A DNA stretch of 33,726 bases, from contig JAQCJQ010000015.1 of NCBI GenBank assembly GCA_027593035.1, positions 1-33,726 of the forward strand, read 5' to 3'. Every line of letters begins with the position of its first letter. Within the stretch, counting starts at the first letter, position 1. Under the pieces are notes generated by a model. That model was not told the origin of the DNA and ran no database searches. It worked only from the letters and a program-made list of their open reading frames with translations. The stretch comes from Bacteroidota bacterium. GTDB lineage: Bacteria; Bacteroidota; Bacteroidia; Flavobacteriales_D; Sanyastnellaceae. The translations under genes were made by a program, and so were the position numbers. Below are positions 4,524 to 33,726 of this stretch, one piece after another.

Positions 4524-7500
4524 ATGAGGTTTAGGGTGGTGATAGTCTCGGCGAGTCTCTGCGTCGCAATGTGTTTGTCTGTGGGGGTTTTGGCACAGTC
4601 GTCGGTTCAGGGGGCTGTTTCTCAGGGAGTTTGGGAAGTGGATTGGTTGCCGAAAGGAACGGAATCCGCTCCGGTGGGCATATGGGCTCCAATGGATGGT
4701 TTCTGGCTGGATGAAATTCCTTGGGTCTTGTGGGAGGCAGAACTGAACGGTTTTGAAGCAGGAATGGAACGTTTGGTGGACACGGAGTCCTGGGCCGAAG
4801 TAGCCGCCGATGAGCTGACTCCTCGCCAGCGCCAGCTGCTCATGGCCAAAACAATCATTCCCCAATGGCGCCATGTGGTGATTGAGGACCTGGTCTCGGT
4901 TCAATACGAATCGCCGCTTTTTCGGTTTGTCGCCAGCCGCGATGTCTTTGAACGTCTCATGGGAGTAGAATGGGCCTTGGGAGCGTCCGTAGCGACCATT
5001 GATCGCCAGGAGCGGGAGCGTGAATGGCCGACTGACGGTCCTTTGGAAAGGGATAACCTGTATCGCTTGTCCATTGCCCAGGACGGGGTGTATCGAATTG
5101 ATCGCAATTGGATGGTTGCCGCGGGATTGAATCCAGACACATTGGATCCACGGAGAATCCGCCTTTGGGGCAATGGTGGAGAGTTGCTGCCTATGGTAAA
5201 CGACCAAGACCGTCCGCTAGGAGTAGAGCCTACAGCGATCTTGTTTCAAGGAGAAGAGGACGGTGTGTGGAACGCGGAGGATGCGCTGTTGTTTTTTGGT
5301 CAAGGTCCCAATAGTTGGATTCCTGGATCCGCTGAACGGAATTGGAAGCATGAGCGGCACGCATACAGTGATTCTGCTTGGTACTTTTTGGAAATCAACG
5401 GCGACATCGCCGATGCGGAGTCTAGAATTCAAAGCGCTTTGCCGACCGGGGGGACTCCAGACACGTTGATTGACACATATTGGAAGCGATCCTTTCATGA
5501 ATTGGAGCTGGAAAGTCCCAATCGATCGGGTCGTGAATGGTTCGGCGAGTCCTTTCAAAACAACAGTTCTCGGGTGGTGAGCTTTGACGTGCCGTTTGCC
5601 ACGGCATCTCCTGCTCGATTGGACATTCAAGTTGCCGCTCAATCGATGGGAGCTGCTAGCACGTTTAAATTCGACGTCAACGGCGTGTTGTTTGAGGCCT
5701 CTCCATCTTACACAAGCAACGGCTCAGTGAGCAATGTTGCCAATTTGTCCAGCGGCAGTTTCGATTTGGGTTCGGCAACGGGAACCGACCTAACGGCGCA
5801 GCATCAAGTTGAGATTTCTTTTGATCCCGCTGTTCCTGATGCGATCGGATGGTTGGATTTTATACGCATTGCTCAGGAGTGTTCATTGCGGATGGCACAA
5901 TCCCAATTGATTTTTGATGCCGAGAACATTGGAGAGGTTGCGGTCGCTGGGTATGCCGTTCAAAATTCAGGAAGCCTCGTAGGTATTTGGGACATCACCG
6001 AGCACAAACAACCAGTCTGGTTGACTTGGGAAAGCAGCGAAGAAGGGGAGGCTGTTTTTTATTCTCAAGCGAATGAGGCGAAGCGATTCGCCTTGTTCTC
6101 CGGTTTTAATTTTAAGACGCCTGACTTTCATGGTGCGGTTCAACCCGTGAATTTGCATGGAGTTGAACAAGCTGATTTGGTCGTGGTGACACGTTCGGAT
6201 TATTTGCCTGCTGCGGAACGATTGGCGCAGTTGCATGCAGCGGAAGGTCTGAGCGTCTTGGTCACGACCCAACGGGCCGTGTTCGATGCGTTTTCATGTG
6301 GAAACACCGATCCAACAGCATTGAAAATGTTGCTCATGATGCTTCGGGATCGGGCGAGTCAAAACGGTCTAGAGCCTCCGAAATATCTGCAAATCATGGG
6401 GGACGGGACCTTTGCGAATCGTTTCAATTTGATGCAATCGCCGTATGTCATTACCTACCAAAGCGAAAACTCCGTCAGCCCAACGGGGAGCTATGTGAGC
6501 GATGATTTCTTCGGCTTCCTTGAGGATCAATACGGAGATGGAATTGGGGATAAAATGGCAATAGGGGTGGGGAGAATCCCCTGTTCCAGTAAGACAGAAG
6601 CGGATGCGATGGTGGATAAGGTAGAAGCATACATGCAACGATCTGTGCCGGTGCTTCCGGGACTGGACTGTGAAGATGCGAGTGCCAGCGCCTCGGGGGC
6701 TTGGAAGAATGTGATCTGTTTTGTTGCCGATGATATGGATGGAAACGGTGGTCCGACCGAAAACGAGCACATGGTGAATTCGGATGAGCATGCAAATACA
6801 CTGGCCGAGGATCATCCGGAATACGATGTGAATAAGATTTATTTGGACGCCTATCCGCAGTGGAGCACTCCCGGAGGAGAGCGGTATCCGGAGGCCGAAG
6901 AATCCATCGATCGGCAGGTGCAAGACGGCGCCTTGATCATGAATTACATTGGCCACGGAGGGGAGCGTGGCTGGTCCCATGAACGGGTCCTCAACACCAC
7001 GACCATTCAAGAATGGGACAAATTGGGAAACATGCCGCTGTTCATGACGGCCACGTGTGAGTTGGCGCGTTTTGATGATCCCGACGTTGATTCTGCCGGT
7101 GAAATGATGGTCATGAATCCCGCAGGTGGAGCGATTGCCATGCTCACCACAACTCGGGTCGTATTCAGCGGCTCGAATCAACAATTGAATCGAGCGTTCT
7201 ACGGCATTGCATTGCATGACACCGAATCGGAGCCACTCCGCCTAGGGGACATTGCCCGTGTGACTAAAAACGACCCGCAGGTGTCAAACAGTTCCAATAA
7301 ACGAAACTTCACCTTGCTTGGAGATGTGGCTCTTCGTCTCAATTATCCCCGCAAAAATGTGGTGATGGAATCACTTCCAGATACCATCCGTGCATTGGAC
7401 GTTGTTTCCGTTGGTGGGACCGTTCGAGACGAGGCCGGAGACCTGATGCCCGATTTCGATGGGCTGGTCTACGTCAAAGTTTTTGATAAGCCATCTCAAA

Positions 7501-29950: not shown

Positions 29951-30028
29951 GGGCGATTAGCTCAGTTGGTTCAGAGCACCTCGTTTACACCGAGGGGGTC
30001 GGGAGTTCGAGTCTCTCATCGCCCACCA
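29951..30028 (+). tRNA. tRNA-Val (anticodon UAC)
   Basis: A complete cloverleaf can be drawn: acceptor GGGCGAT / ATCGCCC, D arm GCTC / GAGC, anticodon stem CCTCG / CGAGG around the loop TTTACAC (anticodon TAC at 34-36, reading GUN valine codons), T stem GGGAG / CTCTC around TTCGAGT, discriminator A and a genomically encoded CCA. Position 8 is T and position 9 is A, as usual. It has an upstream -7 box and a downstream terminator, so it is probably a single-gene transcript. Confidence 0.96.
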
Positions 30029-31112: not shown

Positions 31113-33434
31113 TTAATCCTGAATGCAACGAACAGAATGCCCGTAGGTCGCGTCTTCTGTCGGAATAGAATAACCAGTCGAAGTTGATTGAAGGTGGAGA
31201 AACTTCAAAGTGGTGGAGCTCGGAGCGTCTTGCAGCCAAAACTTTCCATCTGTTCCACCTTCAAAGGATGACCCCCCACCAGAGGAATCACCATTCTTTA
31301 TGCCTCCAGGTTGGAGGTTTAAACCAACATCATTCGTGCCATTCCAATCAACGATGGACTTCATTTGTGTGCCTGCAATAGAAGGATCCGGAAGGATAGC
31401 TGCAAGGGTAGTCACATTAGCTTGGGTTGGGACACTCCAGCCAGCTGGACAAAGCCCAAGTGCGTCTGTGGCAGCATACCCATTGTAGAGCCTGCCGTAG
31501 GCAGCAGATGTGGCATCTTCAAAATAATCTTGGATTGGCGAAGTGCTGTACCAAGAGGCATTAGTCGTCGCCTCCGAAATAACGGTGCCATCACGAAATT
31601 TGGCAGTCTGCAAGTTCTCCGCAAACCAGCATTGATTTCCGATTGAAACCGTAGCATATGAGTAGCCATTATAGGTATAAAGATCGCCACAGTTGACAAA
31701 CGCTGGTGGTGGAGCATTGTACGTCCAGGTGAACTGTGTTGCTGCGGTGTTGTTATTGCCTGCGGCATCCGTGAATGCGCTACCAAGAACATCGATGGCA
31801 CAAGCTCCAGAAGCGGTTGGCGTGAATGTCGCTGTGTAGGTTGTTCCAGATCCTGCAAATGAAGACAATGAACCATTGGTCACGCTAATGTCCCCTACGG
31901 CAAAGTCCGTTGTGCTTTCTGAGGACGTGAAAGTCAAAGAAAGTACGGCGTTATTTGAAGTTGCATTGTTTGAAACCTCCGCTGCGACAATGGTCATCGT
32001 TGGTGCTGTACCATCGTACGTCCAATTGAACGACTGAGATGTCCCAGTGCCATAAACGTAAAGCTCGGTAAGTTGGGTCACTACGCTACCAGGGTGGGAA
32101 GTAGCACCCCCATGGCTACTGCGAGCACCAATTGCATGCCACCAGCTACCACCGACGCTGCCGTCCAGAAATGTAGACCCAGGATCGGTTGATATACTTA
32201 GTCCCTCAAAAACATGTGTCATTGGACCAGTGGTGGATATTAAGTTGAGGGCGATAACGTTAGCATTAGTGCATGCACCCACAACCGGGTTGCAGCTTTG
32301 TTCCCAGACTTTCTCAACACCCTCATTCGGGTTGGTGTACTTGAATTTGTATACACCATTGATGTTCCCCAAAGTCGCCACCTCAGCAAGTCTTGAGAAC
32401 TTATCCGCTGTAGGGTTAGACGTGTTCGTGCTTTTGGCTTCTGCGTAATCGTTCGCATTGCTGAAAAAGGCGCCATTGGCTGAATTGTGCCGAAATACTT
32501 TTATCCACTCCTGCTGTGTGTTCCCTGATGCATCAGAAAAGGTACCGGAAATGCTAATTTCATAGGCCGCATCGCCGGATGGCGTGAATTTCGCTGTGTA
32601 TACAGTGGAAGATACAGGCGTAAAATCTGATAAAGTTCCGCTCGACACCGTGATGTCAGCAGAAGCGAAGTCCGTGGTGGGTTCACTAGACGTGAAAGTC
32701 AAAGTGAGGAAAGCATCGTTAGATGTGGCTCCGTCGCTCACTCCCGCCGCGGCAATGGTCATCGTCGGTGCAGTGGAATCGTACGTCCAGGAGAATGAAT
32801 TGGAAGCCGTATTCCCGTCCCCTGAGGGGTCGGTAAATGCACTCGGTGCAACATAAAAAGTACAAAGTCCGTCTCCCACCGGCGTAAATGTCCCTGTGTA
32901 TATATTAGAAGATACAGCCGTAAAACCTGATATCGCTCCGTTCGTTACCGTGATATCACCACCAACGAAATCACCAGTTGCCTTATTTGAAGTGAACGTC
33001 AAAGTAAGTGTGCCGTCATTGGAAGTTGCACCGCTCGAAACCTCTGTAGCGCTGATTGCCATCGTTGGTGGAAGCAGGGCCGTGGAATGGTCCGATTGCA
33101 AGGCCTGGATATCCTGAATCAACTCAGAGCAATCGTACGTCAAGTAGATCATCGTCCCCGAAACCGATTTCGATACATAGGTAGTGGCAGCAGAGGTCAG
33201 TCCTGTTTCGGTTTCTATTGCCGCCTCAAACTCATTGATCATGGCCATCATCTTCTGCCACTCGCAATACTGATTCACAACGCCATTTGACTCGCTACCC
33301 AGGCTCGAACTCGATAAAATAGGATCGTTCGTGTAAGGAAAAGACGTCGACTGGGCAAAGGACACCATGGTCGCAAACAAACAAACAATCAACAACGTTG
33401 TCTTGCTAAGGGAGTATAAACACTTGTAATCCAT
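31113..33434 (-). CDS. Secreted modular protein with Ig-like repeats, inserted domain and FISUMP domain
   Basis: The 773-residue protein starts with a signal peptide (TTLLIVCLFATMVSFAQS), so it is exported. A helical, Cys-containing head (about 30-118) comes first. Three Ig-like repeats follow, of the type with TxDFxxxDITVxxG, YTxxFTPxxxG and a final SFxWTYD: Ig1 about 122-219, Ig2 222-305 continued at 464-473, and Ig3 476-573. Between the last strands of Ig2 lies a foreign domain (about 306-463) with EWIKVFRHNSANGAFF, KVWEQSCNPV, SWWHAIGAR and TELYVYG. The C-terminus (580-773) is a Fibrobacter succinogenes major paralogous (FISUMP) domain: GNQCWFAENLQT, AYGRLYNGYAA, LCPAGWSVPT and YGHSVRCIQD. 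No type IX sorting domain is seen. Surface adhesion or glycan binding is likely but inferred. It has its own terminator and lies between the tRNA-Val copies. Confidence 0.85.
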   Translation of the reverse strand: MDYKCLYSLSKTTLLIVCLFATMVSFAQSTSFPYTNDPILSSSSLGSESNGVVNQYCEWQKMMAMINEFEAAIETETGLTSAATTYVSKSVSGTMIYLTYDCSELIQDIQALQSDHSTALLPPTMAISATEVSSGATSNDGTLTLTFTSNKATGDFVGGDITVTNGAISGFTAVSSNIYTGTFTPVGDGLCTFYVAPSAFTDPSGDGNTASNSFSWTYDSTAPTMTIAAAGVSDGATSNDAFLTLTFTSSEPTTDFASADITVSSGTLSDFTPVSSTVYTAKFTPSGDAAYEISISGTFSDASGNTQQEWIKVFRHNSANGAFFSNANDYAEAKSTNTSNPTADKFSRLAEVATLGNINGVYKFKYTNPNEGVEKVWEQSCNPVVGACTNANVIALNLISTTGPMTHVFEGLSISTDPGSTFLDGSVGGSWWHAIGARSSHGGATSHPGSVVTQLTELYVYGTGTSQSFNWTYDGTAPTMTIVAAEVSNNATSNNAVLSLTFTSSESTTDFAVGDISVTNGSLSSFAGSGTTYTATFTPTASGACAIDVLGSAFTDAAGNNNTAATQFTWTYNAPPPAFVNCGDLYTYNGYSYATVSIGNQCWFAENLQTAKFRDGTVISEATTNASWYSTSPIQDYFEDATSAAYGRLYNGYAATDALGLCPAGWSVPTQANVTTLAAILPDPSIAGTQMKSIVDWNGTNDVGLNLQPGGIKNGDSSGGGSSFEGGTDGKFWLQDAPSSTTLKFLHLQSTSTGYSIPTEDATYGHSVRCIQD
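31716..33071 (-). repeat. Three Ig-like repeat units within the surface protein gene
   Basis: The units lie at 33071-32778, 32771-32520 (continued after the insertion at about 32043-32016) and 32009-31716. Corresponding stretches stay alike at DNA level. Plus-strand blocks reading GTGAAAGTCAAAG occur near 31926 and 32692, with a close variant near 32992, and blocks with TCGTACGTCCA occur near 32014 and 32780, with a variant near 31718. Such similarity points to duplication with recent homogenisation. Confidence 0.6.
32046..32516 (-). other. Domain inserted inside the second Ig-like repeat
   Basis: This encodes about 157 residues (307-463) placed between FSDASGN and SFNWTYDGTAPT, which are contiguous in the other repeats. 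Trp- and aromatic-rich motifs (EWIKVFRHN, WWHAIGAR) and the closing ELYVYG suggest a compact beta-sandwich, perhaps carbohydrate-binding. The family name is not known to me. Confidence 0.55.
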
Positions 33435-33660: not shown

Positions 33661-33726
33661 GGGCGATTCGCTCAGTTGGTTCAGAGCACCTCGTTTACAC
33701 CGAGGGGGTCGGGAGTTCGAGTCTCT
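33661..33726 (+). tRNA. Second tRNA-Val(UAC)-like copy, cut by the window end
   Basis: The visible 66 bases match the tRNA at 29951 at every position but one: position 9 is C where the first copy has A. The D arm, the anticodon arm with TAC and the T arm as far as CTCT are present; the 3' acceptor strand lies beyond the window. No exact -7 box precedes it. TGCCTTTG at 33617-33624 is one mismatch away but 36 bases upstream of the tRNA. It could be a working second gene or a duplicated remnant. Confidence 0.7.

Follow-up and report, generated by a model that had tools for sequence, protein, structure and literature searches.

A domain shared with phage gp35 connectors is nested in an Ig-like repeat of a secreted-looking Bacteroidota protein

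FReD domains (PF00147) bind acetylated sugars or proteins, and their features include a second disulphide around GWWY and a calcium run of the DxDND type. The carrying of one domain inside another is known from the pilin RrgA, in which the inserted domain is a von Willebrand A domain and the host is a CnaA-type isopeptide domain of a pilus, i.e. another inserted fold and a host that is not the Big_12 repeat considered here. The relevant passages of PMC12617251 describe a large inserted domain carried by the Ig-like CnaA domain of RrgA, and name vWFa inserts in general as inserted domains. Another described system is gp35 of phage T4, which the passages of PMC3004832 that deal with it present as the knee of the fibre that binds gp36, and not as a receptor binder. 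The protein reported here likewise holds a large domain within an Ig-like surface domain, and the relatives of this domain lead both to phage gp35 and to proteins with a fibrinogen-like cap.

The window (the whole stretch of DNA that was analysed, 33,726 nucleotides of a Bacteroidota genome) encodes on its minus strand a 773-residue protein which, judged from its sequence, looks secreted. An N-terminal region precedes three Ig repeats, and the protein ends with a FISUMP domain; the coordinates of all features are collected in Table 1. Big_12 was found above the Pfam cut-off in three stretches of the protein (E=3.8e-40), and the FISUMP model TIGR02145 scored 79.7 bits against a cut-off of 41.65. 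In a Pfam scan of the ten genes neighbouring 31113-33434 no phage gene was seen: eight belong to ordinary cellular families and two had no match. We found that an inserted domain splits the second Big_12 Ig-like repeat, separating the last turn of the repeat from its closing strand.

Table 1. Features of the gene in the window and of its protein.
Feature	Residues	Position	Strand	Basis
Whole gene, multidomain, secreted-looking protein	773 aa	31113..33434	-	Open frame; Big_12 and Fib_succ_major (Pfam), FISUMP (NCBIfam)
Putative signal peptide	1-28	33351..33434	-	By eye from the sequence
Ig1, unbroken Big_12 repeat	122-219	32778..33071	-	Repeat HMM (all 97 model positions); Pfam
Ig2, first part, to SDASGN turn	222-305	32520..32771	-	Repeat HMM, 91.3 bits, positions 1-85
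Inserted domain	306-461	32052..32519	-	Family with phage gp35; probably a cap-less fibrinogen-like body
Ig2, closing strand, end SFNWTYD	462-474	32013..32051	-	Best join 305/462; structural alignment
Ig3, unbroken Big_12 repeat	477-573	31716..32006	-	Repeat HMM (all 97 model positions); Pfam
C-terminal FISUMP / Fib_succ_major	590-773	31116..31667	-	PF09603 E=2.6e-27; TIGR02145 E=4.1e-22

The insert is one autonomous domain of a genuine family. With the window row left out, a family HMM still scored the insert at 111.7 bits and the whole protein at 106.3 bits (aligned at 309-460); among 200 shuffled inserts the highest score was 5.8 bits. The first-pass annotation had spoken of an otherwise uncharacterised module, and this was borne out: the isolated insert passes no cut-off in Pfam or NCBIfam, and no description of the domain was found among the titles and abstract starts listed by keyword searches of one open-access library. 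A PDB search with the family alignment A8 returned a ribosomal protein at E 1.3 only. Two leads were discarded, the Pfam model pAdhesive_17 (E 0.0078, below cut-off) and the Pseudomonas fluorescens agglutinin (E 0.061). PHROG 16097, the gp35 hinge connector of KVP40-type phages, matched the insert at E=2.4e-14 in two stretches, and both halves of the domain are aligned. Three longer pieces of the protein gave 1.1e-14 to 2.9e-13 with the same profile, the last value belonging to residues 122-573 (452 residues). The full 773-residue protein had no match to PHROG 16097 in hmmscan, which we read as an effect of the filter, because the family HMM does find the domain in the full protein. By its sequence the insert is assigned to the gp35 domain family (PHROG 16097, N-terminal third). 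Among the residues conserved in at least 11 of the 12 aligned members are W310, F314, S347, W377, Q379, P383, D424, G425, W431, P448 and L458, with D424 and W431 being the best candidates for binding residues.

Relatives in phages were sought by tblastn in 50,697 phage records. With the insert as query, four records were found at E≤0.01, from the Cronobacter phages S13 and LPCS28, and 55 records at E≤10, of which 50 are Vibrio phages; a match to VP4 of Microviridae covering 22% of the query was taken as probably due to chance. Gp35 of Cronobacter phage S13 (PHROG 1154) shows 27.8% identity over 96% of the query (E=2e-4), and those Vibrio phages that were matched in two pieces show 37-41% identity to the insert. 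A viral relative used as query yielded 55 phage records at E≤0.1, all except one covering at least 80% (54 records), and another such query added the Citrobacter phage Ci1. The domain is the C-terminus of S13 gp35; in KVP40 gp35 it stands at the very start of the protein and is in turn interrupted by about 180 residues. The gp35 connectors of KVP40-like Vibrio phages and of Cronobacter phage S13 hold the same domain as the window protein, but Pfam names neither an Ig repeat nor FISUMP in them, and the window protein in turn lacks the rest of gp35 and its tail-fibre neighbourhood, only two stretches being matched, the best of them at positions 9-81 of the 896 in the profile. In scans of IMG/VR a relative was found on twelve contigs, counting KVP40 and VH7D. 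Among the candidates, viral contig L009 shows 38-39% identity over query residues 3-154 (E=8e-28). On four contigs (L009, L010, L011, L032) the domain accompanies Laminin_G_3 domains, and on six others (L033-L037 and L040) it fills most of a stop-to-stop open frame of 177-200 codons with little else in it, which speaks for an autonomous domain. Seven of ten neighbour genes scanned on the viral contigs have a PHROG match, including tail fibre, DNA primase, nucleotide pyrophosphohydrolase and transaldolase, so the contigs look like those of tailed phages. A library of viral protein models gave four matches below 1e-3: two are nameless, one is from Vibrio phage phi-pp2 and one is a LamG protein of Pyramimonas orientalis virus.

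Bacterial relatives were far fewer. A search of 399 genomes of the order with an 11-row alignment matched five, namely the window's own genome and four of the seven genomes of genus g218. Earlier alignments had found the own genome only, among 114 genomes of the family and 395 of the phylum; a deeper alignment gave two matches in the 395 phylum genomes, the own one and G143, the latter taken as doubtful (2.7e-4 over model positions 56-139, the frame having 2273 codons). With the insert sequence alone as query, no match was obtained in viral contigs, genome contigs, 59 other genomes near the window or plasmids, and plasmids likewise gave nothing with the viral-relative query. A second scan of genome contigs also found none; the two genome-contig scans, with six and two short patterns, are weak evidence of absence. 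PF00147 was found in none of 198 genomes, a result without weight because the control genomes did not respond either. The suggested likeness to modules of marine bacteria and invertebrate extracellular proteins stood in part: many of the phage relatives have Vibrio hosts or come from seawater and oysters, and the relatives as a whole belong to phages, to viral contigs and to a single further genus of this order, while on the invertebrate side the likeness is that of the fold to animal fibrinogen-like domains. In all four g218 relatives (L042-L045) the domain is directly preceded by the bacterial fibrinogen-like cap YCDxxxxGGGW. NF040941 (GGGWT_bact) passes its cut-off at all four caps, with values of 1.4e-17 to 1.6e-14. 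Pfam Fibrinogen_C is over its cut-off of 22 in the two relatives scanned, L042 and L045 (26.7 and 35.3 bits), over its first 51 positions only; L045 is cut off by the contig end.

As to function, the insert is plausibly a binding module, and we lean somewhat towards the reading that it is related to the FReD fold, lacks the cap and serves as a ligand-binding head. The three Ig repeats would form a stalk outside the cell and would hold the module sideways, where it would bind a glycan or glycoprotein on the surface of a particle or host, in the manner of fibrinogen-like lectins, with FISUMP as a further outer module. The strongest competing explanation is structural, T4 gp35 being the fibre knee: the insert might be a spacer, knee or docking part which bends or joins fibres as phage gp35 does, instead of a ligand-binding head. 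Most of the named phage relatives are indeed gp35-type hinge or tail connectors, the domain sits at the extreme N-terminus of KVP40 gp35, and the passages on T4 gp35 in PMC3004832 have it form the knee and bind gp36; the relatives in phages are therefore not necessarily lectins. Other relatives were judged more head-like than hinge-like, however, both those in short viral frames with little else or behind LamG and those which follow a GGGW cap at the C-terminal end of bacterial proteins, and a module placed side-on in an Ig stalk needs no bending role. We consider a structural part unlikely, and a ligand-binding head the better account of the insert.

The fold is probably the body (B/P) of a fibrinogen-like domain without its cap. 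The GGGW strand which ends the cap in g218 aligns with EWIKVFRH of the window, and the domain would begin at this strand and finish on an adjacent one. A structure model of the viral member L030, built without capped sequences, has a pLDDT of 64.6 and a pTM of 0.69. In a Foldseek search of the PDB with this model ranks 1-19 are all fibrinogen-like, with E values of 0.033-0.13 and none below 1e-3. VIA-align lists 50 rows for it, 47 of them fibrinogen-like, a count which is not independent support because many rows are copies of few proteins; the best is Angptl3 with Z 6.5, rmsd 3.8 and 129 residues aligned, where a Z below 8 may reflect merely a shared arrangement. The remaining rows are two of NCOA7 (TLDc) with Z of about 5 and a nameless third, 8ar9, which has NCOA7 numbering. 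The aligned part of the targets starts past the cap and extends almost to the C-terminus (Angiopoietin-2 316-493).

The window protein differs from FReD domains in several respects. Pfam Fibrinogen_C gave no listing for the protein or the insert up to E 10, a cap with SGxY and YCDxxxxGGGW is absent from the window, and NF040941 was not listed there. The insert has cysteines only at 381 and 388, the cap cysteines being absent, and the calcium run is absent except for the conserved D424-G425, which leaves one Asp in the calcium region. We do not class the insert as a FReD domain proper because of the lacking Pfam match, cap, disulphide and calcium features; the resemblance lies in the relatives that carry the cap directly ahead of the domain and in the fold search, which ranks FReDs first. 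The insert probably adopts the fold of a FReD body, and it may function as one too.

An alternative is a separate family, with a beta-rich fold only loosely like the fibrinogen-like (or TLDc) one and with the g218 cap fused on separately. It agrees with the weak fold scores of Foldseek and VIA-align, with the presence of TLDc among the matches, and with the insert having no Pfam match over cut-off. It also agrees with comparisons of profiles with capped phage and bacterial proteins, none of which was significant (best probability 9.5%, E 0.0034). Against this, the GGGW strand that ends the cap also forms strand one of the domain, and the aligned relatives agree in this register; the top 19 Foldseek rows are fibrinogen-like though no capped sequence went into the model. 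The family HMM moreover finds capped phage proteins that are collinear with it and keep the register between GGW and YSIL, with a best E of 0.0019 among 82, a match that is aided by 3 of the 12 rows of the HMM coming from capped proteins. We regard a separate family as doubtful, slightly more so than a structural role, and keep to the cap-less fibrinogen-like body.

The nesting itself was measured with a repeat HMM of six Ig repeats, namely Ig1 and Ig3 of the window and two each from the genomes G008 and G016, with Ig2 excluded. Ig1 and Ig3, both in the training set, scored 159.3 and 155.6 bits over all 97 positions. Ig2, outside the training set, was matched at residues 222-306 up to model position 85 only, and the end of the model was matched again by a weak second fragment ending at residue 474 (2.9 bits). 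In a join scan 164 later positions were tried: the 14-residue piece taken at each was appended to the left half of Ig2, and the product was scored with the repeat HMM. The top score, 112.7 bits, was obtained at 305/462, compared with at most 97.4 bits for the left half without a tail; the median of the per-position best scores was 98.2, and the top seven positions are 461-467. Because the scan peaks at 305/462, the insert comprises residues 306-461, at most two residues off the limits in the first-pass annotation, which gave 32046-32516 (residues 307-463 on the minus strand) for an insert of about 157 residues breaking the repeat. A structure model of Ig2 plus insert (residues 218-478, the insert being model residues 89-244) has a pLDDT of 67 and a pTM of 0.62, and a Foldseek search of the PDB with it gave nothing below 1e-3. 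In VIA-align the alignments of all 50 listed matches, mostly Ig-like, begin at model residue 1-23 and end at 254-261; they comprise 77-98 residues each, and the highest Z among the matches listed is 8.4. VIA-align reports the first and last aligned residues only, so these rows support nesting and do not prove individual strand pairings. The proposed position within the last loop of the repeat is borne out by the joins and the structural alignments together, and two ordinary consecutive domains were not seen in the model or in the repeat-HMM analysis. That no nesting exists, and that behind a truncated Ig2 there is an ordinary domain which chances to end in a strand resembling SFxWTYD, is very improbable: the closing-strand fragment is weak by itself and the model is of moderate confidence, but SFNWTYD stands at the expected place and gives the best join among the 164 positions, the family profile stops at residue 460 ahead of it, and the insert is crossed by the alignments in every listed row.

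Nesting at this site would be eased by the ends of the domain. From the known FReD topology the first and last strands, 309-316 and 456-462, would be neighbours, and with neighbouring end strands the domain could sit in a loop without breaking its host. It would then be insertable in loops, as in Ig2, and able to host other domains in its own loops, as in KVP40 gp35. A more tentative and rather unlikely extension is that an undescribed, nestable family with a cap-less fibrinogen-like body moves between phage fibres and bacterial surface proteins and, in the bacterium, binds the same kind of surface glycan as that touched by phage fibres. The analysis as a whole names a family for a domain that lies below every Pfam and NCBIfam cut-off here and connects the knees of phage tail fibres with surface-type proteins of bacteria. 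The rule for nesting that it puts forward is a simple one, namely that the cap is lost and the ends are adjacent. If glycan binding were true, the small viral versions of 177-200 codons would hint at the role of the KVP40-like fibre knee.

Genome G008, of the same genus, has an equivalent gene of 536 codons in an open frame. It resembles the window gene in the N-terminal region, the Ig repeats and the FISUMP end, but has two Ig repeats and is without Ig2 and the insert. Ig1 of the window shows 88.2% identity to the first Ig of G008 and Ig3 75.0% to the second, whereas Ig2 reaches 63.9% at best with either. Since Ig1 and Ig3 pair with the Igs of G008 and Ig2 with its insert is left unpaired, Ig2 plus insert is an extra cassette relative to G008. 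The cassette would have been gained by a two-Ig ancestor or lost from G008, two courses that a comparison of only two genomes does not separate. Direct transfer from a phage was considered and not adopted: in the tree the window row is on a long branch, in no starred (supported) set and with no supported neighbour, so the tree does not place it, and composition does not mark the insert. The GC content of insert and gene is the same (0.489 and 0.489), and it is the gene as a whole that is low at third positions, so composition does not single out the insert; third-position GC of the whole gene is 0.484, compared with a mean of 0.586 (sd 0.039) in 121 overlapping windows from eight neighbouring genes.

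The relative of the insert that is carried by gp35 of phage KVP40 is itself interrupted, as about 180 residues separate its NNF and GVRGYEAI stretches: a nestable domain here has something nested within it. A comparison of this gp35 with Pfam, at E-values up to 1, gave no match. In gp35 of Cronobacter phage S13, an ILEI match slightly below the cut-off was noted (24.7 bits vs 27; E = 3.3e-5); this domain takes its name from an animal protein. The positions of both proteins are listed in the table below, together with two tRNA genes of the window.

Positions of the two gp35 relatives and of the tRNA-Val genes
Feature	Position	Remark
KVP40 gp35	L003 2474-3490	holds insert relative
S13 gp35	L002 2924-4426	ILEI match in N-terminal part
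tRNA-Val (TAC), copy 1	29951-30025	same direction as copy 2
tRNA-Val (TAC), copy 2	33661-33726	same direction as copy 1; cut by contig end

Beyond phages, the model of a family member matched A0A7M3UP39 in BFVD at E = 4.3e-4. This LamG-like protein belongs to the algal virus Pyramimonas orientalis virus, which hints that the domain is also present in viruses of eukaryotes.

Fibrinogen-like proteins were found on viral contigs as well. On one of them (L040) a short family member is followed, two open frames later, by a protein (5104-5940) whose Fibrinogen_C match exceeds the cut-off (E = 1.2e-5). Altogether 102 stretches with the pattern CDMxxxGGGWT were found on viral contigs (L056-L135), and 37 of the 69 bodies examined have a YSIL-like motif within 90 residues. 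For eleven such proteins the bodies were compared with Pfam, where nothing scored better than E = 0.66. These proteins apparently constitute a large group of fibrinogen-like phage proteins without annotation. In bacteria, the YCDxxxxGGGW cap seems to be joined to differing bodies within one genome, since proteins of genomes G591 and G565 (L049 and L050) combine this cap and a similar leader with a different body.

The gene under study (31113-33434) lies in a segment of 3.6 kb bracketed by the two tRNA-Val copies, which are 98.5% identical over 66 bases; the pair may reflect a real duplication, an element boundary or an effect of the assembly. Third-position GC of the whole gene is 0.484, below that of the eight neighboring genes (mean 0.586, sd 0.039; 121 windows).
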